Positions 4,981-46,877 of a DNA stretch of 64,000 nt are shown here, in pieces; position 1 is the first letter of the stretch; each line of letters opens with the position of its first letter. Position numbers and translations under genes: made by a program. The notes below the pieces were generated by a model. It was not told the DNA's origin. It was given only the letters and a program-made list of their open reading frames with translations, and did no database searches. The DNA is from Oscillospiraceae bacterium (lineage in GTDB: Bacteria > Bacillota > Clostridia > Oscillospirales > JAAYOS01), in NCBI GenBank assembly GCA_031264245.1, contig JAISEG010000009.1:68986-132985 (forward strand), written 5' to 3'.

Positions 4981-5724
4981 ATGCTTTTAAAATACGACCT
5001 GCATATACACTCCTGCCTGTCCCCCTGCGGGGACAACGACATGACCCCCGCAAACATTGCCGCAATGGCGGAGCTGGCGGGGTATGACGTTATCGCGCTG
5101 AGCGACCACAACACGGTAAAGAACTGCCGCCCGGCAATCAGCGCTGCCAGGCAGTCTCCGCTGCTTGTCCTCCCCGCGATGGAGCTTACAACGGCGGAGG
5201 AGGCGCACGTCCTCTGCCTTTTTTCCGATTTGGACGCGGCGGAGAGCTTCGGCGAATACGTCTACAGCCGCCTTCCGGATATCGAAAACGATCCGGAATT
5301 TTTCGGCGAACAGCGGCTCATGGACGACACGGACGGCATACTCGGCTTTGAGAAAAAAATGCTGATAAACGCGACGGATATCGGGATAAACGAAATTTCC
5401 TCCCTGGCTGAAAGCTATGGCGGCATAGCCATTCCCGCCCACATCGACCGCAGCTCCTTTTCCATTTTGTCCAATCTGGGTTATTTTGACCGGACTGTCG
5501 GCTTTGACCTGTGCGAGCTTTCCCGTCAGGCGGACGTCCGCGCACTCGCCGAACAGCATCCCGAGCTTGAGGGTCTCGGGTACATAGTGGATTCGGACGC
5601 GCACTCCCTCGGGGCAATGCCGGACGCTGAAAAAAGCCTTGAATGCGGCGAAAAAACAGCTGCGTCGGTCATTGCCAGTCTTCGCCGCGGAACCTTTTTA
5701 CAAAAAATTCATCCTTTTCGATAA
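4981..5724 (+). CDS. PHP-domain metal-dependent phosphoesterase family protein
   Basis: A 247-residue PHP protein of the polymerase-and-histidinol-phosphatase superfamily. Metal-ligand motifs are clear: DLHIHS (His8, His10), SDHNT (Asp42, His43), MELTTAEEAHVL, PAHIDRS and SDAHSLG. The substrate is unknown; phosphoesterase activity on small phosphorylated molecules is typical for the fold. ATG 4981 is chosen because GAGGGAG lies nine bases upstream; the in-frame ATG at 4963 precedes that site. It is the last gene of the first hydrogenase-associated block. Confidence 0.88.
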   Translation: MLLKYDLHIHSCLSPCGDNDMTPANIAAMAELAGYDVIALSDHNTVKNCRPAISAARQSPLLVLPAMELTTAEEAHVLCLFSDLDAAESFGEYVYSRLPDIENDPEFFGEQRLMDDTDGILGFEKKMLINATDIGINEISSLAESYGGIAIPAHIDRSSFSILSNLGYFDRTVGFDLCELSRQADVRALAEQHPELEGLGYIVDSDAHSLGAMPDAEKSLECGEKTAASVIASLRRGTFLQKIHPFR

Positions 5725-5775
5725 ATTTAAAATTTAAAAATTTTAAAAGAATGTGCATGTTTTTTTTAAATAATG

Positions 5776-5804
5776 TAGAAAAATAACTCGAACTGTGCTA
5801 TAAT
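5776..5804 (+). promoter_or_regulatory. Extended -10 promoter for the hydrogenase structural genes
   Basis: TGCTATAAT at 5796-5804 is an extended -10 with a perfect TATAAT hexamer. The -35 region at 5776-5781 (TAGAAA) is poor. It lies about 260 bp upstream of the HydC-type gene in an AT-rich 341-bp spacer. Confidence 0.55.
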
Positions 5805-5902
5805 GTTCAAGGTTCGTTATTTTTTCGTCAATATCGAAATGTTTTAAAAACTGCTGCTTTTTTTAATGTCTAATACTAAACACATTGATAAGAAACCGTA
5901 AT

Positions 5903-5953
5903 AAAAATCGGGTGCAAAACCGCATATGCGCAACGTTTTTTCACCCGATTTTT
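5903..5953 (+). promoter_or_regulatory. Long terminator-like hairpin in the hydrogenase leader
   Basis: AAAAATCGGGTG (5903-5914) pairs perfectly with CACCCGATTTTT (5942-5953). Inside, AAAAC pairs with GTTTT, and a CGCATATGCG palindrome sits in the loop. The stem ends in five uridines, so it could terminate transcription. It lies between the extended -10 promoter at 5796 and the first structural gene at 6067, where it would act as an attenuator. Confidence 0.55.
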
Positions 5954-6066
5954 AAACGCTTTCTAACAATATTTAGTCTAAATCTAAGAAGCTGCATAAT
6001 TTGCCGTACTCGCTGCCTGAATGTGATGATACCAATTTTTTTATATATTAGGAGGAGGTCATTTTA

Positions 6067-6561
6067 ATGCCGAACACCAAGACAAAGGTAACCTTTAACG
6101 GTACCGCGGAGCAGGAGGCGGAGCTGCTCGCCTTCATCAACAAGACCAAGGATGAAAAGGGCTCCACAATGCCGATCCTGCAAAAGGCTCAGGAAATTTA
6201 CGGGTACCTGCCGGAGGAGGTCCAGGTTATCGTCGCCGAAGCGACCGGGGTCCCGCTTTCCGAAATCTACGGGATAGCTTCATTCTACGCGCAGTTCACC
6301 CTGAACCCCAAGGGAAAGGTTCAAATCAGCGTATGCATGGGCACCGCCTGCTACGTAAAGGGCGCGGCGAACATCCTTGACCGGGTCGTTTCCAAAATCG
6401 GATGCCCCGCCGGGTCGATAACCGAGGACGGGCAGTATTCCGTCGACGCCACCCGCTGTGTCGGCGCGTGCGGGCTTGCTCCCGTCATGCTGATCAACGA
6501 GGACGTCTACGGCCGCCTCGTTCCCGAAAAGGTTGACGGCATCCTTGAAAAATACAAATAA
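6067..6561 (+). CDS. hydC: NuoE/HydC-type [2Fe-2S] subunit of the NAD-linked hydrogenase
   Basis: Thioredoxin-like [2Fe-2S] protein of 164 residues, the usual size for the NuoE-like subunit of multimeric [FeFe] hydrogenases. Cluster ligands are Cys90 and Cys95 (CMGTACYVKG) and Cys131 and Cys135 (CVGACGLAP). It passes electrons between the flavin subunit (HydB) and the catalytic subunit (HydA). The ATG follows a very strong AGGAGGAGG site. It opens the structural block, which continues on the same strand to 11184. Confidence 0.93.
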   Translation: MPNTKTKVTFNGTAEQEAELLAFINKTKDEKGSTMPILQKAQEIYGYLPEEVQVIVAEATGVPLSEIYGIASFYAQFTLNPKGKVQISVCMGTACYVKGAANILDRVVSKIGCPAGSITEDGQYSVDATRCVGACGLAPVMLINEDVYGRLVPEKVDGILEKYK

Positions 6562-6599
6562 CTGCCACAAACCGCCGCGCTGAAGGGATATTCACAGCT

Positions 6600-7139
6600 A
6601 TGAAGGAGCTTTCACTCAACATATTGGATATAGCCCAAAACTCCATAACCGCGGGCGCTTCAGCAGTGACTGTCGAGGTGACCGATTCGCAAGGCGCGGA
6701 CGCCGTAGAAATCGTTATTTCGGACGACGGCTGCGGTATGGAGGAGGATTTTCTCCGGCGCGTGACCGACCCCTTCACCACCTCCCGCACCACAAGGAAG
6801 GTCGGACTGGGCGTTCCCCTCTTCAAGCTCGCCGCCGAAATGGCGGGCGGAGACTTTGATATCAGGAGCGCTCCCGGCAAGGGTACTGTCGTCACCGCGC
6901 GGTTTCAGCGCTCGCACATCGACCGGCCGCCGCTTGGCGATCTCACCGGCACCGTTATCGCCATTGTGCAGGGCAATCCTGATTTGAACCTTGTTTTCCG
7001 CCACTCGACCGACGCCGGTTCATACGAATTCTCCGCCGCCCTGATTCGCGAGGAGCTTGGCGGAATACCTCTCGACGAGCCGGAAATACTAACATGGATA
7101 AGCGAATGGCTGACCGAAAACGAAGCCGGTCTTTACTGA
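6600..7139 (+). CDS. GHKL ATPase of the sensor-kinase type, second copy
   Basis: A 179-residue protein beginning MKELSLNILDIAQNS. It has N-box LDIAQNSITAGAS, G1 box DDGCGMEEDF, a threonine/arginine-rich lid (TTSRTTRKVGLG) and the G2-like GKGTVVTA. It looks like an isolated histidine-kinase ATPase domain followed by about 60 residues of unrecognised sequence. It sits between hydC and the extra ferredoxin gene, an arrangement known from clostridial and thermophile hydrogenase operons. A regulatory role in hydrogenase expression or activity is inferred from position only. Confidence 0.82.
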   Translation: MKELSLNILDIAQNSITAGASAVTVEVTDSQGADAVEIVISDDGCGMEEDFLRRVTDPFTTSRTTRKVGLGVPLFKLAAEMAGGDFDIRSAPGKGTVVTARFQRSHIDRPPLGDLTGTVIAIVQGNPDLNLVFRHSTDAGSYEFSAALIREELGGIPLDEPEILTWISEWLTENEAGLY

Positions 7140-7578: not shown

Positions 7579-9378
7579 ATGAATTTTTCCAGATCACACA
7601 TATTGGTATGCGGCGGAACAGGCTGTACCGCCTCGGACAGCCCCGGCATTATCGCCGAGTTTGAGTCGCAGCTTGAAAAGTATAATTTAAGCAACGAAAT
7701 ACGCGTCGTGCAGACAGGCTGCTTCGGTCTCTGCGCGCTGGGTCCGGTAGTAGTTGTTTACCCGGAGGGCGCGTTTTATTCAACGGTGAAGGTCGCGGAC
7801 GTAAAGGAAATCGTCGAGGAGCACATCCTCAAGGGACGAATTGTCGACCGCCTTCTGTACCATGAGACAAAGACTGAGGAGGCGGGTCAGGTAAGCTCGC
7901 TCAGCGACACGGATTTTTACCGCAAGCAAAAGCGGGTCGCGCTTCGCAACTGCGGCGTTATAGACCCGGAAAACATTGACGAATACATAGCATATGACGG
8001 ATATCAGGCTCTCGCTATGTGCCTCACCGAAAAAACCTCTCAGGAAGTCATCGACATGGTGCTCGCCTCCGGGCTTCGCGGCCGCGGCGGAGCGGGCTTC
8101 CCGACAGGGCGGAAGTGGCAGTTTGCCTCCGTCGAACCGGGTCCGGTCAAATACGTCTGCTGCAACGCGGACGAAGGGGACCCGGGCGCGTTTATGGACC
8201 GTTCGGTCCTTGAAGGCGACCCGCACAGCGTTATCGAAGCCATGATAATCGCCGGTTACGCTATCGGCGCGCATCAGGGCTATGTGTATGTCCGCGCGGA
8301 GTACCCCATAGCGGTCGATCGCCTGCAAAAGGCGATCGCGCAGGCGAAGGAATACGGCTTCCTCGGAAAAAACATCTTTGACACCGGCTTCGACTTCGAC
8401 CTGGAAATCCGTCTCGGCGCGGGCGCGTTCGTCTGCGGCGAGGAAACCGCGCTTATGACCTCCATCGAGGGAAACCGCGGCGAGCCGCGCCCCCGTCCTC
8501 CCTTCCCGGCGGTCAAGGGACTTTTCGGCAAGCCGACCATCCTCAACAACGTCGAAACCTACGCCAACATCCCGTGGATACTCTGCAACGGGCCCGAGCA
8601 GTTCGCGGCTATGGGCACCGAAAGCTCAAAGGGAACCAAGGTTTTCGCCCTGGGCGGCAAGATAGTAAACACAGGTCTCGTTGAAATTCCGATGGGCACC
8701 ACCCTCCGCGAGGTCATCGAGGAGATCGGCGGCGGCGTGCCGAACGGAAAAGCCTTCAAGGCGGCGCAGACCGGCGGACCGTCCGGCGGATGTATCCCCG
8801 CTTCCCTCATCGACACCCCGCTGGATTACGAGAGCATGGCCGCCATCGGTTCGATAGTCGGTTCCGGCGGACTCATCGTAATGGACGAGGACAACTGCAT
8901 GGTGGACATCGCGCGTTACTTCCTTGACTTCACAGTCGACGAATCCTGCGGAAAGTGCTCCGCCTGCCGTATCGGCACCCGCCGCATGATGGAAATACTT
9001 GACAAAATAACCACCGGAAACGGAACTCTTGAGGATATCGACCTTCTGGAGGAGCTTTGCAACCACGTAAAAAACAATTCACTTTGCGGTCTGGGTCAGA
9101 CCGCGCCGAACCCCGTCCTTTCGACCCTTAAGTACTTCCGTGACGAGTATATCGCGCACGTTGTGGAAAAGCGCTGCCCGTCGGGAGTCTGCAAATCACT
9201 TCTTAACTACTCCATTTTGCCGGACAAGTGCACCGGCTGCACAGCCTGCAAGCGGGTATGCCCGGTCGAGGCTATCTCCGGCGAGGTTAAGAAAACTCAC
9301 GTCATCGACAGGGAAAAATGTATAAAATGCGGTGCGTGCATGGAAAAATGCAGGTTTAATGCCATAATCAAGGCATAG
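7579..9378 (+). CDS. hydB: NuoF/HydB-type flavin and NAD(H)-binding hydrogenase subunit
   Basis: The roughly 599-residue flavoprotein exchanges electrons with NAD(H). From the N-terminus: a thioredoxin-like [2Fe-2S] domain (ILVCGGTGC; QTGCFGLCALGP), the FMN/NADH-binding core (GRGGAGFPTGRKW; CGEETALMTSIEG), an SLBB segment, the ESCGKCSACRIGTRRM [4Fe-4S] motif, and two ferredoxin motifs at the C-terminus (CTGCTACKRVCP; CIKCGACMEKC). The extra ferredoxin domains are typical of ferredoxin/NAD-coupled bifurcating enzymes. ATG 7579 has GGAAGGA ten bases upstream; an in-frame ATG at 7555 overlaps the previous stop and lacks a good site. Confidence 0.95.
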   Translation: MNFSRSHILVCGGTGCTASDSPGIIAEFESQLEKYNLSNEIRVVQTGCFGLCALGPVVVVYPEGAFYSTVKVADVKEIVEEHILKGRIVDRLLYHETKTEEAGQVSSLSDTDFYRKQKRVALRNCGVIDPENIDEYIAYDGYQALAMCLTEKTSQEVIDMVLASGLRGRGGAGFPTGRKWQFASVEPGPVKYVCCNADEGDPGAFMDRSVLEGDPHSVIEAMIIAGYAIGAHQGYVYVRAEYPIAVDRLQKAIAQAKEYGFLGKNIFDTGFDFDLEIRLGAGAFVCGEETALMTSIEGNRGEPRPRPPFPAVKGLFGKPTILNNVETYANIPWILCNGPEQFAAMGTESSKGTKVFALGGKIVNTGLVEIPMGTTLREVIEEIGGGVPNGKAFKAAQTGGPSGGCIPASLIDTPLDYESMAAIGSIVGSGGLIVMDEDNCMVDIARYFLDFTVDESCGKCSACRIGTRRMMEILDKITTGNGTLEDIDLLEELCNHVKNNSLCGLGQTAPNPVLSTLKYFRDEYIAHVVEKRCPSGVCKSLLNYSILPDKCTGCTACKRVCPVEAISGEVKKTHVIDREKCIKCGACMEKCRFNAIIKA

Positions 9379-9399: not shown

Positions 9400-11184
9400 A
9401 TGAGCAACGTAAACGTTAAGGTAAACGGCATCGAGACGGAAGTCCCCGAGGGCTCGACAGTCCTTGAGGCCGCCCGCATTGCCGGTATAGATATACCCAC
9501 CCTGTGTTATATGAAGGAAATCAACCAGATCGGGGCCTGCCGTATCTGCGTCACCGAAATCAAGGGAATGCGCGGGCTTGTCGCCGCCTGCGTCTACCCC
9601 GTAAACGAAGGCATGGAGATAATCACAAACTCCAAGAGGGCGTTCGACTCACGCAAAATGTCCCTCGAGCTTATACTGTCAAACCACAGAATGGAATGCC
9701 TGACCTGCTCGAGAAGCCAAAACTGCGAGCTTCAAACGCTGGCGAAGGAATACGGCATCGAGGACGTCCGCTTCGGCAACCGTGAGGACCTCCCTCCCGA
9801 AATCGAATGCTCCACCGCCCACCTTGTGCGGGACAACTCCAAGTGCATACTCTGCCGCCGCTGTGTCGCGGTGTGCAAAAGCAACCAGGCCGTCTCGGTC
9901 ATCGGCGCAAACGACCGCGGCTTTTCCACCCACATCGGAAGCGCGTTTGACCGAAATCTCGGCGAAGTGGGCTGCGTCAGCTGCGGACAGTGCATCGCCG
10001 TCTGCCCGACCGGCGCGCTTACCGAGGTCGACGACACCGCCAAGGTCTGGGACGCGCTTGCCGATCCGTCAAAGCACGTCGTCGTCGCTTCCGCTCCGGC
10101 GGTCCGTGTGGCTCTCGGCGAGGAGTTCGGTATGCCCATAGGCACAAACGTCGAAGGCAAGCTGTCCGCCGCGCTCCGCCGCCTCGGCTTTGACAAGGTC
10201 TTCGACATAAACGTGTCCGCCGACCTCACAATCATGGAGGAGGGTACCGAGTTCATCGACAGGCTGCAAAATAACGGCGTCTTCCCGATGATAACCTCAT
10301 GCAGTCCGGGCTGGATACGCTTCTGCGAGCAGTACTACCCCGAATTTATTCCGAACCTCTCAAGCTGCAAGTCGCCTCAGCAGATGTTCGGGGCTATGAT
10401 GAAAACCTATTACGCCGAAAAAATGAACATCGACCCGAAGGATATCTTCGTCGTCACCGTCATGCCCTGCACGGCCAAGAAGTACGAGGTGCGCAGAGAG
10501 CACCAGATGTCCGTCCCGGGTCACTACGACATCGACGTGACCGTAACCACCCGCGAGCTCGCCAAAATGATCAAAAAATCCGGCATCAAGTTTGACAGGC
10601 TGCCCGACGAGGACTTCGATCCCGCCTTTGGCATCTTCTCCGGCGCGGGCGTCATCTTCGGAGCCACCGGCGGGGTTATGGAAGCCGCCCTGCGTACCGT
10701 CGTCGAAACCCTGACCGGCGAGGAGCTTAAGAAGCTGGACTTTACCGCCGTGCGCGGTATAGAGGGCATAAAGGAGGCGTCCTACGACGTCGCGGGAACC
10801 ACCGTGAAGGTTGCGGTGGTGAGCGGGCTTGCCAACGCCGCAAAGCTTCTAAACAGGATAAAAAGCGGCGAAGCCGAGTACCATTTCATCGAGATCATGG
10901 CCTGCCCCGGCGGCTGCGTAAACGGCGGCGGGCAGCCGATACAGCCCGGCTCGGTTCGCAACTTCACCGACCTTCGCACCGAGCGCGCGGCGGCGATATA
11001 CGCTCAGGACACCGGCATGAAGCTGAGAAAGAGCCATGAAAACCCGCTTATCAAGCAGCTCTACGACGAATATCTCGGCAAGCCCGGCGGACACAAATCG
11101 CACGAGCTTCTGCACACCAGCTACAAAGCCCGCCCGAAATATCCGGGTCTCGCCGCCCAGCGGCAAAAAGCCGCGAAATCGTAA
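9400..11184 (+). CDS. hydA: [FeFe] hydrogenase catalytic subunit
   Basis: A 594-residue catalytic subunit reducing protons or oxidising H2. The domains in order are an N-terminal [2Fe-2S] ferredoxin fold (CYMKEINQIGACRICV), the His/Cys [4Fe-4S] region (NHRMECLTCSRSQNCEL), two [4Fe-4S] motifs (CILCRRCVAVC; CVSCGQCIAVCP), then the H-cluster domain. H-cluster loops are TSCSPGW (299-305), MPCTAKK (355-361) and MACPGGCVNGGGQP from residue 500. The first loop has Ser302 where the textbook motif has a second Cys. ATG 9400 is chosen since GGAAGG lies seven bases upstream. With HydB and HydC it should form an NAD- and ferredoxin-linked complex. Confidence 0.96.
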   Translation: MSNVNVKVNGIETEVPEGSTVLEAARIAGIDIPTLCYMKEINQIGACRICVTEIKGMRGLVAACVYPVNEGMEIITNSKRAFDSRKMSLELILSNHRMECLTCSRSQNCELQTLAKEYGIEDVRFGNREDLPPEIECSTAHLVRDNSKCILCRRCVAVCKSNQAVSVIGANDRGFSTHIGSAFDRNLGEVGCVSCGQCIAVCPTGALTEVDDTAKVWDALADPSKHVVVASAPAVRVALGEEFGMPIGTNVEGKLSAALRRLGFDKVFDINVSADLTIMEEGTEFIDRLQNNGVFPMITSCSPGWIRFCEQYYPEFIPNLSSCKSPQQMFGAMMKTYYAEKMNIDPKDIFVVTVMPCTAKKYEVRREHQMSVPGHYDIDVTVTTRELAKMIKKSGIKFDRLPDEDFDPAFGIFSGAGVIFGATGGVMEAALRTVVETLTGEELKKLDFTAVRGIEGIKEASYDVAGTTVKVAVVSGLANAAKLLNRIKSGEAEYHFIEIMACPGGCVNGGGQPIQPGSVRNFTDLRTERAAAIYAQDTGMKLRKSHENPLIKQLYDEYLGKPGGHKSHELLHTSYKARPKYPGLAAQRQKAAKS

Positions 11185-11250
11185 ACGGCTCCGGCATCTG
11201 ATAAATTGATATAGCAATTTATATAGTCTATGTTATGTCAAATTGATATT

Positions 11251-11292
11251 AATACCGTGAGACCGAAGCGCTTCGGTCTCACGGTATTTTTT
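11251..11292 (+). terminator. Terminator after hydA
   Basis: A perfect 19-bp inverted repeat: the left arm (11251-11269) begins AATACCGTGAG and the right arm (11270-11288) ends CTCACGGTATT. It has no spacer and is followed by more thymines. It ends the hydrogenase transcription unit. Confidence 0.92.
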
Positions 11293-11397
11293 ATCCGGGT
11301 ATTGATATTTTTTTTCATTTAGTGTAAACTATTAGTTAGAAAACATCTATAATGCCAATATATAACTCATCTGAAATATGAAAGGATGGTCATTAGA

Positions 11398-11583
11398 ATG
11401 AAAGCCTTCAGACTTATCGCTTCTATTCTGCTCGGAATGGCTGCTATCGCGGGTATACTTGTTTTGGTATACTGCTACATGGATTCTCTTTTGAAGCCTT
11501 TCTACTCGCTTAAAAACAAGTATGTCGAACGAAAAAACGACTGCTGTGACGGCGATATGTGCATGTGCGGAGACGCCGACTGA
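11398..11583 (+). CDS. Small single-span membrane protein with Cys-rich tail
   Basis: Unrecognised 61-residue protein. Residues about 5-26 form a hydrophobic membrane segment (LIASILLGMAAIAGILVLV), followed by a basic stretch and a cysteine-rich acidic tail (CCDGDMCMC). ATG 11398 has AAAGGA eleven bases upstream; TATAAT at 11348-11353 is a possible -10 box. It is followed by its own terminator, so it is a stand-alone gene. The tail could bind metal or form disulfides, but no function can be assigned. Confidence 0.7.
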   Translation: MKAFRLIASILLGMAAIAGILVLVYCYMDSLLKPFYSLKNKYVERKNDCCDGDMCMCGDAD

Positions 11584-11616
11584 AGATCATACCGGGCAAA
11601 TTGCCCTGATGTCTTT

Positions 11617-11647
11617 GGGCGGCGATACTTGCCGCCCTCTTTTTTTA
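11617..11647 (+). terminator. Terminator after the small membrane protein
   Basis: GGGCGGC (11617-11623) pairs with GCCGCCC (11631-11637), followed by CTCT and seven or more thymines. Confidence 0.88.
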
Positions 11648-11692
11648 TATAAAATTATACTTATTACATAAGCTCAGTATAAAGGAGAAATT

Positions 11693-12607
11693 ATGCCTAT
11701 CAGAATACCGGGCGCACTGCCGGCAAAACAGATCCTGGAGAACGAGAACATATTTATAATGACAGAGAACCGCGCGGATATGCAGGATATCCGTCCGCTT
11801 CGCATTGTCATATTAAACCTGATGCCGACAAAGGTCGTCACCGAGACGCAGCTTTTGCGCTGTCTGTCCAACACGCCCATACAAATCGAGATAGACCTGC
11901 TGCAAACCTCCACCTACACCTCCAAAAACACCTCCGCCGACCATTTGCTCTCCTTTTATCACACCTTTGATGAAATCCGGCAAAACAAGTATGACGGCAT
12001 GATAATAACCGGAGCGCCGGTGGAGCATTTGGCGTTTGAGGAGGTGGCGTATTGGCCGGAGCTGACCGAGATAATGAGGTGGAGCCTTACAAATGTGTAT
12101 TCCACCTTCCACATATGCTGGGGCGCTCAGGCCGGGCTGTATTACCACTACGGCATCCCAAAGCATCGGCTGGATAAAAAGTGCTTCGGCATTTTCAACC
12201 ATGACGTGCTCGAGCCCACCTTCCCCCTGTTCCGCGGCTTTGACGACGTGTTTCCCGCCCCTCATTCACGCGGCACCGAGGTCCGGGCGGAGGACGTCAA
12301 AAGATATTCCGGCCTGTCCCTTCTCTCGGTCTCGGCGGAAGCCGGAGTATACATATGCGCGCGGGCGGACGGACGGCAAATTTTCGTGACCGGACACTCC
12401 GAGTATGACCGGGATACGCTGAAAACCGAATATCTGCGGGATTTGGACAAGGGGCTTGACATCGACGTCCCGGTCAACTATTTTCCCGGCGACGACCCGC
12501 GAAACGACCCGCCGGTCACATGGCGCTCCCACGCTAATCTGCTTTACACAAATTGGCTCAATTACTATGTGTACCAGTCGACGCCGTATGACCTCAACGC
12601 CCTGTAG
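11693..12607 (+). CDS. metA: Homoserine O-acyltransferase, MetA family, predicted acetyl-CoA type
   Basis: Activates homoserine for methionine synthesis. The 304-residue protein has the MetA catalytic set: Cys142 (ICWGAQA), His235 and Glu237 (VTGHSEYD). Residue 111 is glutamate (GAPVEHL); in characterised MetA enzymes Glu at this column goes with acetyl-CoA use and Gly, as in E. coli, with succinyl-CoA. I therefore predict homoserine O-acetyltransferase activity, although databases often label this family succinyltransferase. The ribosome site AAGGAGA is strong. The short upstream region contains no recognisable SAM riboswitch. Confidence 0.94.
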
Positions 12608-41292: not shown

Positions 41293-41335
41293 AACCCCTC
41301 TTCAAATCAAGCTTTGCTTGATTTGAAGAGGGGTT
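41293..41335. terminator. Bidirectional terminator after dapL
   Basis: A perfect 20-bp stem (41293-41312 with 41316-41335, left arm AACCCCTCTTCAAATCAAGC) with a TTT loop, followed by AATTATT. The DUF4430 gene converges on it from the other strand. Confidence 0.85.
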
Positions 41336-41337
41336 AA

Positions 41338-42153
41338 TTATTCCTTGTCCGCGCAGTCCTTGCCCAAATCCCTGGTGAAGAAGAAGCTGACCCTGTCGCC
41401 TGCCGCAACGTCGTATTTCCCGCAGCCGACCCCGGCTTGCTCGCCGTTCACCTTGTATATCCAGCCGGAAAGAGCGCCGTCGCTCTTCTCCATGATACCG
41501 TCTATCCCGCTTATATAGGGCGAACCGCTCCCGCCCGTGTACTTCACCTCGACATCGCTCTGCTCCGCCGCCTTCATCAGCGCGTCAAAGGCGGTTTTGA
41601 CCTCGGCGGCGGCAACGTCGCACTCAAAGATAATGCCCTCCGGTCCTTCCGCCTTCACCCTCACCGTGTCCGCTGAGTCGGCGGAGCTTTCCGTTCCGCC
41701 GGATGGCGGAGCCGACCCCTTCTGCTCTGCTAAAACCGACGCCGAAGCTTCCGGCGGAACCGACCCCGCAGGTTCCGCTGGCGCCGAGGAAGCCTGCGGT
41801 GAGGTCGAAACGCTGTCCGCCGCCCTTGGCGGCGGCGTTTCGACCCGCTCTTCCGCAGGAGCGGAGGAGGCAACCGGGGGCGGGTCAGGTGAAACAGCGG
41901 GCAGCGCAACCGTCGCGTCCGCGTCCGATGGCGCGGAAGATATACCGTCCTCCGCGGTAATTGCCGCCGCAGGGAGACCTTGCGCGCCGCCGTCACTCGC
42001 CGCGGGAGCGGGCGGCGGAGCTTCATACCCTCCGCCCGCCAACCCGCAAGCCGACAGAAGCCAGCACAGCAGCAGCGCAACAGCTAATACCCTTCCCCGA
42101 CGAAAGCGGGGATATCCTTGCGCAGAACAGCGGGGTGGATTACTTCTTCTCAC
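41338..42153 (-). CDS. Lipoprotein with C-terminal DUF4430 domain
   Basis: 271 residues. It has a long basic leader, then a hydrophobic stretch with lipobox LLSAC (Cys36), so it should be tethered to the outer face of the membrane. A Pro/Ala/Ser-rich linker (about 40-165) follows. The last about 95 residues are a DUF4430 domain, with GWIYKVNGEQAGVGCGKYDV and a final DRVSFFFTRDLG. DUF4430 is the beta-domain of transcobalamin and intrinsic factor. It starts with GTG 42153, overlapping the upstream stop by four bases, so it is translated with its partner. I infer a cobamide- or other ligand-binding role. Confidence 0.82.
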   Translation of the reverse strand: MRRSNPPRCSAQGYPRFRRGRVLAVALLLCWLLSACGLAGGGYEAPPPAPAASDGGAQGLPAAAITAEDGISSAPSDADATVALPAVSPDPPPVASSAPAEERVETPPPRAADSVSTSPQASSAPAEPAGSVPPEASASVLAEQKGSAPPSGGTESSADSADTVRVKAEGPEGIIFECDVAAAEVKTAFDALMKAAEQSDVEVKYTGGSGSPYISGIDGIMEKSDGALSGWIYKVNGEQAGVGCGKYDVAAGDRVSFFFTRDLGKDCADKE

Positions 42154-43640
42154 TTAACAGCTGCGACGAACAGCCTTGCCGCAAGCTCCCTTGTGACCTC
42201 AGTCCCGGCGTAGTCCTCCCCGAGAATCCCGGCTGAGACGAAGCTCTCTGTAAGCTCCCCTGCCGCTTCGTCACTGTCCGCTCCCAGCACAAACGCCGCC
42301 GCCGCGAGAATCTCGTCGATTCCAACCGCCGCCTGCGGATTCAGAAGCTTTTCCCCGTCCTCATTCGTCTCAGCGCCAATCGCTCCCGACGCCGCCGCGG
42401 AAAGCATCGCCGCCGCGTACCATTCCTCGCCTGAGATATCGGCATAGCCGTTCTCCGCCGGGGATACTCCGGCGATATTGCCCACTATTGTGGCAAGCTC
42501 CGCCCTTGTCAGAAGGTCGCCCGGACGGAAGCTTCTGCCGCCGCCGCACATTATCCCAAGCGAACGCGCGGCCGAAACGTCCTTAACGCTTCCATCTGTG
42601 ATTTCGGAGCCGTCCAGATATCCGGTCACGGGGTCAAACGGAGCCTTTTCCCATGAAATATCGTTTGTCCATGCTCCGTCTCTCACGTCGCAGAGCGCCA
42701 TCAGCCCCTGATAGGTCGCAAAGTAATTTGACTCACTGTCCACCGTTTCGTAGATAAATCCGCCGTCCTCACATACAAACGAGAGCAGGTTTTGCAGCAT
42801 TTTCACGCCGCCGAATTCGTCCTTAGCAAACCCTCCTGTCGCCGCAAGACCCGAAAGAGCCACCGCCACGCTGTTCGAGTTCTCGCTGCCGGTCTCGCTC
42901 CAGACCGAGACGTACCCGCCGTTTTCGGTGAGCTTCGACGCCAGGAACTTCGACGCGCCTTCTATCGCCGCGGAGACCCCCTCAATATCGGAAAGCTTAT
43001 ACAGCGCGGGGAGAGCCATCGCCGTCGCGTCCACATCCCCCTCTTCTCCGTAGTACGTGTAGCCGCCGTCCTTCAACTGCTGCCCGAGCAGATTCTTCGC
43101 GGCGGCGGCGCGGCTGTACCGGCTGTACCCGACGCTCTCCAAAAGCAGAACCGCGTACAGCGTGTCCGTTATGTAGCCGAAGGAGCCGTCCTCCAGCTGC
43201 GCCGCGGCTATGTAATCCACAGCGGAGCCCGCGCCGGAAATGATCAGTGAATCGGGATTCGTCCCGGTCACAAACAGCGCAAGGCTGTTGAGCGCAAGAG
43301 AGGCGACCTTCTCCTCCTCCGCGTACCCCTTACAAAGCTCGGTCCAGCCGTCGAGGTAAGCGCCGAGCTTCTCCTTCATCTCCGCCAAGGCGCTTTCCCA
43401 TTCCTCATCCCACTCCCGCGTCCGAGCCATGCCCTCATATGCCGAAATAGCTCTCGTCAGGGTTATCGCGTCCCACGCCCCGAAGTCCTCTTCATAATTC
43501 CCGTACCATTTGACCGCGCCGATTATCGCGCTGTCCACCTGTGCAGACAAGTCCGCCCCAAGCTCGTACCCGAACGCTATAGAGGGAAGCATTGTCAAAA
43601 TCATCAATATCGACAGCAAAACCGAAACTGTCTTTTTCAT
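42150..43640 (-). CDS. Secreted alpha/alpha-toroid protein with C-terminal SLH-like domain
   Basis: 496 residues: signal peptide (about 1-24), then prenyltransferase/squalene-cyclase-type helical repeats (about 30-330), with QLEDGSFGY, QLKDGGYTYYGEEGDVDATA and LTENGGYVSVWSE as repeat cores. The last about 150 residues resemble S-layer homology repeats (MCGGGRSFRPGDLLTRAELA). The toroid is the fold of the N-terminal domain of transcobalamin. It is followed directly by the DUF4430 lipoprotein, so together they look like a split transcobalamin anchored at the surface. The ligand is not proven. Confidence 0.8.
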   Translation of the reverse strand: MKKTVSVLLSILMILTMLPSIAFGYELGADLSAQVDSAIIGAVKWYGNYEEDFGAWDAITLTRAISAYEGMARTREWDEEWESALAEMKEKLGAYLDGWTELCKGYAEEEKVASLALNSLALFVTGTNPDSLIISGAGSAVDYIAAAQLEDGSFGYITDTLYAVLLLESVGYSRYSRAAAAKNLLGQQLKDGGYTYYGEEGDVDATAMALPALYKLSDIEGVSAAIEGASKFLASKLTENGGYVSVWSETGSENSNSVAVALSGLAATGGFAKDEFGGVKMLQNLLSFVCEDGGFIYETVDSESNYFATYQGLMALCDVRDGAWTNDISWEKAPFDPVTGYLDGSEITDGSVKDVSAARSLGIMCGGGRSFRPGDLLTRAELATIVGNIAGVSPAENGYADISGEEWYAAAMLSAAASGAIGAETNEDGEKLLNPQAAVGIDEILAAAAFVLGADSDEAAGELTESFVSAGILGEDYAGTEVTRELAARLFVAAVK

Positions 43641-43862
43641 AGTAAACCACCTATTCCTAATATATTTGTCATAAAATTGACATAAACCCAGTATACATTA
43701 ATTGCGCATATAACGCAAGACCCGCGCGCTTTCAGAAAAGGCGGCATTATTCATGCTTTATGTAAACTTTTCGACATCAAAAATTCCCCGCACCCCTGTT
43801 TTCAGCCCTTGGAGGATTCAGGCAATTTCATGGTTTTAGCGGTCGGGGCAAGCCTTTTTTAA

Positions 43863-43883
43863 TGTGGATAATCCTGTGGACAA
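43863..43883 (-). promoter_or_regulatory. Two adjacent DnaA-box-like sites
   Basis: TGTGGATAA (43863-43871), the exact complement of consensus TTATCCACA, and TGTGGACAA (43875-43883), one mismatch, lie 12 bases apart in the same orientation. Confidence 0.45.
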
Positions 43884-44229
43884 TGTGCAAAACTTTTTGT
43901 AGTATTAAACGTCAATTAATTTACGTAAACACGGAAGCAACTTTTGCGGCAATTTTTTGTCAATATTTCACAGGTAAATAGCGCTGAATTCCTTTAAATA
44001 TTCAATTTTACTCAACAACTCGAATAAAAATTTTTGCGTATTTATTATATGCTGATTATATAATCTCACAGAAAACAGCCTATACCCATATATTCTTAAT
44101 ACCATTATACCGTTTGTATAATAGACATTCGTTCACCCGCTTCATAATAACAGCTTTATTAATCAATAATGAATAAAGCTATCACCCCTGCGCTTAGCGG
44201 AAGTAATAGCTATGCTAAAAAAATTAATA

Positions 44230-46562: not shown

Positions 46563-46870
46563 TTCTTTATGTATCGCAACACGGGTTCAGTATAATATTT
46601 ATATGCGGACAAGGCAAATTATATAGCAAATCAAATATTTAACCCTAATATTTAATTTCACCCGAAATCATTATACATGACCGCGGGTGAAATTACAACA
46701 TCCGCCCCTAGTCTTTGCGAGCGAAGCGAAGCAATCCCCCGTCCCCAATTGTCAATTGTCCATTGTCAACTGTCAACTGGGGGACGGCGGACGCGCATTG
46801 CGCGCCCCTACAAACAATCGTCTCCCCACCCATTCTCCGTCCTCAACTGTCAACTGTCCATTGTCAACTA
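46563..46870. other. Spacer with inverted and short tandem repeats
   Basis: No gene seen. AATTTCACCCG (near 46649) and CGGGTGAAATT (near 46683) form an 11-bp inverted pair. The rest consists of the repeats at 46745-46877. Confidence 0.55.
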
Positions 46871-46877
46871 TCAACTG
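46745..46877. repeat. CAATTGTC/GTCAACTGTC short repeats with a GTAGGGGCG copy
   Basis: Clusters of degenerate 7-9-base units (AATTGTC, CCATTGTCAAC, TGTCAACTG) occur at 46747-46780 and at 46853-46877. Between them at 46781-46811 is GGCGGACGCGCATTGCGCGC followed by CCCCTAC, the interspersed element also seen near 28762. The acyl-CoA ligase reading frame ends inside the last cluster. Confidence 0.6.

Follow-up and report, generated by a model that had tools for sequence, protein, structure and literature searches.

Many gut bacteria rely on scavenged cobamides, and the route by which vitamin B12 passes through the wall of a monoderm to the ECF transporters is poorly known. Two overlapping genes in the 64,000-nucleotide stretch of Oscillospiraceae DNA analysed here (the window) raise the question of whether the two domains of a transcobalamin-like carrier, made as separate chains with different anchors, could serve such a route. 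The initial annotation had read the pair as a surface device for cobamide capture while calling the link to B12 an inference, and this reading gains independent support from a cobalamin riboswitch at an orthologous pair and from the riboswitch and ECF neighbourhoods of related loci. A transcobalamin-like role in B12/cobamide capture at the outer surface of a Clostridia-type monoderm is the probable function predicted for the two proteins, at a likelihood of roughly 77%.

The first gene of the pair (42150-43640, minus strand) encodes a 496 aa protein, here termed alpha, that comprises a signal peptide or transmembrane segment (residues 3-27), an alpha/alpha toroid domain and an SLH region. The toroid spans residues ~28-325 (42666-43559, minus strand), matches PF00432 with 30.7 bits against a cut-off of 26.5 and keeps the DxDxTAM core as D202, D204 and T206. 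It is followed by an SLH repeat at residues 343-383 (42492-42614, minus strand; PF00395, 31.1 bits, cut-off 20.8) and by two degenerate SLH-like repeats at residues ~396-496 (42153-42455, minus strand), which are recognised by eye and from weak matches in the orthologous protein. The earlier description of 'SLH-like repeats' is therefore fair but generous, as the first is clear in Pfam and those beyond it are degenerate and not significant there. The wall polymer to which SLH domains attach is a product of CsaB, and a CsaB scoring 261 bits against a cut-off of 213 is encoded in the same genome. A signal peptide, an SLH region with one clear and two degenerate repeats, and CsaB in the genome together give alpha the full set of features expected of an SLH-anchored wall protein.

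The second gene (41338-42153, minus strand) starts with GTG and encodes beta, a 271 aa protein whose hydrophobic segment (residues 20-43) contains a lipobox, LSAC, with the cysteine at position 36 (42046-42048, minus strand); by this motif alone beta is a predicted lipoprotein, in agreement with the membrane anchoring by lipidation that had been proposed for it. A Pro/Ala/Ser-rich linker of ~125 aa, read from the translation (41659-42036, minus strand), leads to a C-terminal DUF4430/SLBB domain, the counterpart of the transcobalamin beta domain, at residues 166-266 (41356-41658, minus strand), which matches PF14478 with 60.5 bits at residues 187-260 (cut-off 23.8). The domain keeps the invariant SGW, VNG and DLGxD motifs and the conserved glycines, with nearly all conserved positions retained. 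Its sequence has no significant match in the PDB, where haptocorrin alone is returned, with an E value of 0.22.

The beta start codon lies over the alpha stop codon in a GTGA overlap (42150-42153, minus strand). Both reading frames and their overlap are exactly as first annotated, as is the division of toroid and DUF4430 between two genes. A perfect 20-bp inverted repeat with a T tail (41293-41335, plus strand), a likely terminator, separates the pair from the convergent dapL. The genes nearby encode AsnA, DapF, an aminotransferase (DapL by its sequence), Hpt, UDG, YgbB/IspF and an AMP-binding enzyme, and none of them encodes EcfT, EcfA or an S component, which bears out the earlier remark that no transporter is adjacent. 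The DUF4430 gene is present in one copy in the assembly (1.2 Mb in nine contigs, 47% complete). The pair is more than a chance association, since both domains pass curated cut-offs and the same gene order recurs in a genome of the same family with conserved synteny. Elsewhere in the window, degenerate short repeats of the type CAACTGTCAACTGTCCATTGTC occupy 46734-46877 next to an imperfect inverted repeat at 46653-46695 and form an intergenic repeat element.

The company that such domains usually keep is apparent from 80 DUF4430 loci of Clostridia and Bacilli, which were collected in a scan of genome contigs by protein similarity only, with riboswitches disregarded. In 43 of the 80, a cobalamin riboswitch (RF00174) precedes the operon on its own strand, above the curated cut-off in 39 of them, and mappings on the wrong contig (without riboswitch ends) are excluded from this count; about 0.1 loci would be expected by chance, given 124 riboswitches in ~211 Mb and ~6 kb of one strand at each of the 80 loci. 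A riboswitch sequence profile finds 52 matches in 49 loci, every one of them on the same strand as the operon. The usual operon runs from the riboswitch through a gene for a 270-280 aa extracellular protein to one that encodes toroid, transmembrane segment and DUF4430 in one chain, and continues with EcfT (CbiQ, PF02361), a double ECF ATPase (EcfAA') and an S component (PF07155/PF12822). EcfT adjoins the DUF4430 gene in 70 loci, with the ATPase two or three genes further on, and toroid and DUF4430 are fused in a single chain in 66 related ORFs.

Some of these loci show further features of their own. The secreted 270-280 aa protein encoded just before the fused gene (for example L154 3543-4385, with similar genes in 44 loci) has no clear Pfam match apart from a weak one to Big_1, and resembles a divergent second SLBB protein. 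Tandem cobalamin riboswitches, a few hundred bases apart, occur at L121 1000-1536 and at G041:C34 25027-25737. Locus L098 has two cobalamin riboswitches as well, one before the operon (5433-5575) and one between the toroid-DUF4430 gene and EcfT (8273-8405), and also encodes an 881-aa ECF chain that fuses two ATPase domains and an S component (9643-12288). In L073 and L074 a toroid-free locus is found, in which a short membrane-anchored DUF4430 gene adjoins an S-component-like gene behind a cobalamin riboswitch (the riboswitches seen in L024 and L025 are these same places), and which represents a minimal version of the system.

Splitting of toroid and DUF4430 is a recurrent variant that is not unique to the window. 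Five loci (L110, L132, L133, L139 and L156) look as though the usual hairpin had been severed, with one transmembrane segment at the end of the toroid protein and another at the start of the DUF4430 protein. Desulfosporosinus (L121) encodes a toroid protein with CWB2 wall-binding repeats, then a DUF4430 lipoprotein, EcfT, EcfAA' and an S component, all behind two tandem riboswitches, and in three Paenibacillus loci (L106, L120 and L160) a large toroid-DUF4430-toroid-SLH protein precedes a DUF4430 protein encoded on its own. The exact form described here, namely a toroid-SLH protein that has no DUF4430 of its own, paired with a DUF4430 lipoprotein and with no ECF genes, is found in the window and at one further locus only.

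This further locus, L084, belongs to a metagenome-assembled genome of the same family (G002, contig CALXAZ010000095.1) and repeats the arrangement of the window, with a toroid-SLH gene first, a DUF4430 lipoprotein gene second and a convergent dapL. Its toroid-SLH protein (gene at 5620-7071) is 36% identical to the window alpha, and the domain of its DUF4430 lipoprotein is 55% identical to that of the window beta. A cobalamin riboswitch (RF00174, 80 bits) occupies 5369-5551, and the toroid gene begins at ~5620-5638, 70-85 bases downstream. This is the strongest single link to B12 for the precise architecture of toroid-SLH protein and DUF4430 lipoprotein.

The window pair itself has no such element. 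The upstream region (43641-44211, minus strand) contains no cobalamin riboswitch by Rfam, either at the gathering threshold or at E values up to 10, and no match to a profile built from 24 related riboswitches; a search for RF00174 across the genome, at 47% completeness, which the initial annotation had suggested as a check, likewise returns no cobalamin riboswitch. The lack of one immediately upstream is genuine, as the pair sits inside a 150-kb contig, but genome-wide absences carry little weight with half of the genome missing.

A search for ECF-CbrT elsewhere in the genome, also envisaged at the outset, was more fruitful. An S component unlinked to the pair (L176 8640-9227) has 6fnp_A as its sole PDB match, at 1.9e-11 and at 6.1e-21 when a profile of its relatives is used; 6fnp_A is CbrT of the cobalamin transporter ECF-CbrT. 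The protein shares 31-40% identity with the S components encoded in the riboswitch-type operons of L121 and L106, and an EcfT (164 bits) is encoded elsewhere in the genome. The co-occurrence of S component and pair is not specific, since the S component is also present in genomes of the same family in which no toroid pair was found. A use for the vitamin is suggested by a 792-aa B12-binding protein with a homocysteine methyltransferase-like start and by the activation-domain-like gene that adjoins it, both named by sequence reading, which together point to a methionine synthase (MetH-like).

D204 and T206 are 99-100% conserved across 90 toroids and both are kept in the window alpha, and four residues that are at least 90% conserved in other toroids are replaced (Q237 by L, E256 by N, Q260 by V and H298 by E). 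All four positions are replaced in the L084 ortholog too, and the ligand contacts of alpha may consequently differ from those of other toroids. The losses may reflect altered contacts, a shift in the cobamides preferred or a smaller part played by alpha; they leave the L084 pair inside the cobalamin regulon, since that pair is under riboswitch control. It is conceivable, though unlikely, that the beta lipoprotein alone binds the cobamide together with the CbrT-like S component and that alpha, having lost its ligand contacts, serves beside it as a structural element or spacer. Such an arrangement would fit the near-complete conservation of beta beside the eroded alpha, the binding of cobalamin by the isolated human transcobalamin beta domain (PMC5599065) and the toroid-free DUF4430 domains that adjoin S components behind riboswitches in L073 and L074. 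It fits less well with the position of the alpha gene, which comes first in the operon, overlaps the beta gene, is retained with it in the ortholog and there directly follows the riboswitch, and with the retention of the DxDxTAM core. On balance a cobamide sandwiched between alpha and beta is favoured, by a modest measure.

The same divergence of alpha, taken with the lack of a riboswitch at the window copy and the use of toroid folds by glycoside-processing enzymes and terpene cyclases, would also agree with a pair that binds some other soluble ligand (e.g. a modified corrinoid, heme or a glycan), in which case the L084 riboswitch would be a local peculiarity. This is improbable given that L084, with the same alpha losses, lies directly behind a cobalamin riboswitch, that DUF4430 loci are massively associated with this riboswitch and with ECF genes, and that the organism has a CbrT-like S component of its own.

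Structure models bear on the fold of both domains. The 15 PDB entries that best match the AlphaFold model of a fused relative (L090), built on 48 sequences with a mean pLDDT of 86.7, are all transcobalamin, intrinsic factor or haptocorrin, with both domains aligned and target-normalised TM scores of 0.44-0.58, and the beta domain of the model compares with that of human transcobalamin at a TM score of 0.75. The closed, ligand-bound pose of the two domains is absent from the model, as the overall rmsd is ~8-12 Å for most entries, but such a pose is not required of an apo model. The window toroid was modelled from 17 sequences with a mean pLDDT of 66.6, residues ~185-320 being well predicted and those before them more weakly. 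Taken alone it is a generic toroid of the alpha/alpha type, for which transcobalamin enters the ranking only from place 35 downwards, and squalene/drimenyl cyclases and glucuronyl hydrolases outscore transcobalamin both here and in toroid sequence profiles; neither the profile nor the lone toroid model is specific, because cyclases rank first. A secreted terpene cyclase-type or glycoside-processing enzyme beside an unrelated DUF4430 lipoprotein, which this ranking would suggest, is rejected as highly improbable in view of the predicted export and wall anchoring of the toroid protein, the 66 one-chain toroid-DUF4430 fusions and the ranking of B12 carriers first by the fused model.

For the favoured reading of cobamide capture by alpha and beta together, a mechanism can be sketched. 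The SLH region would hold alpha in the wall through a pyruvylated wall polymer, and beta, tethered to the membrane by its lipid, would extend its DUF4430 domain upwards on the long Pro/Ala/Ser linker. Separately expressed alpha and beta domains of human transcobalamin join only in the presence of cobalamin (Bloch et al. 2017; PMC5599065), and that paper cites the same cobalamin-dependent joining for intrinsic factor. A naturally split pair is mechanistically plausible because of this behaviour, and the cobamide bound between the two chains could likewise be what draws them together. Loaded beta would then hand its cobamide over to the CbrT-like S component encoded elsewhere in the genome, for import with the shared EcfAAT module and use by methionine synthase. 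That the anchored chains stand apart when empty and are joined by the vitamin itself, as a cobamide-induced clamp from wall to membrane, is a tentative proposal that may well prove wrong; if it is true, a single ligand-gated step would both capture the cobamide in the wall and deliver it at the membrane. No description of a two-anchor, ligand-gated device between wall and membrane was found in the open-access literature.

The reading of the pair as a B12-capture system is thus supported. Two points are to be added to the initial annotation, namely that scavenging of B12 by toroid-DUF4430 proteins has been predicted since 2007 and that other split versions exist. Toroid-SLBB fusions of low-GC Gram-positives were described by Burroughs et al. 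(2007; PMC1796856), who predicted that they scavenge B12, noted that the operons often hold CbiO/CbiQ-like genes along with another SLBB protein and suggested that animal transcobalamin originated in bacteria; riboswitches, S-layer and lipoproteins do not occur in their text. The open-access literature, with subscription papers outside the scope of the search, contains no study of these bacterial toroid-DUF4430 proteins. The window pair has the same two domains as the proteins of Burroughs et al. and is likewise secreted by a monoderm, but theirs are fusions, whereas here the domains are separate chains with different anchors and there is no transporter in the operon. The evidence from riboswitches, ECF genes and CbrT makes the domain-based prediction of 2007 a testable uptake pathway.

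Among the split relatives, the Desulfosporosinus operon resembles the window in its toroid wall protein followed by a DUF4430 lipoprotein, but has CWB2 in place of SLH, EcfT, EcfAA' and S directly after and its two tandem riboswitches upstream. ECF-CbrT (PDB 6FNP) is represented by the unlinked CbrT-like S component and EcfT, whose part in transport is predicted from sequence, and no toroid-DUF4430 protein is described for the CbrT locus that has been characterised, nrdJ-cbrS-cbrT-pduO. BtuG and BtuH of Bacteroidetes (PMC8941943, PMC10404256) are B12-binding surface lipoproteins that serve an importer and offer a functional analogy, drawn from the literature only, but unlike the window pair they belong to diderm outer-membrane uptake systems. 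Animal transcobalamin, intrinsic factor and haptocorrin share with the pair an alpha toroid and a DUF4430 beta domain, a fold match made through the fused relative L090, at very low sequence similarity to the pair itself. The animal carriers are single soluble chains taken up by receptors, whereas the window pair consists of two anchored chains; it bears on the proposed bacterial origin of these carriers and would be a natural counterpart of the ligand-induced assembly of the separated human transcobalamin domains.
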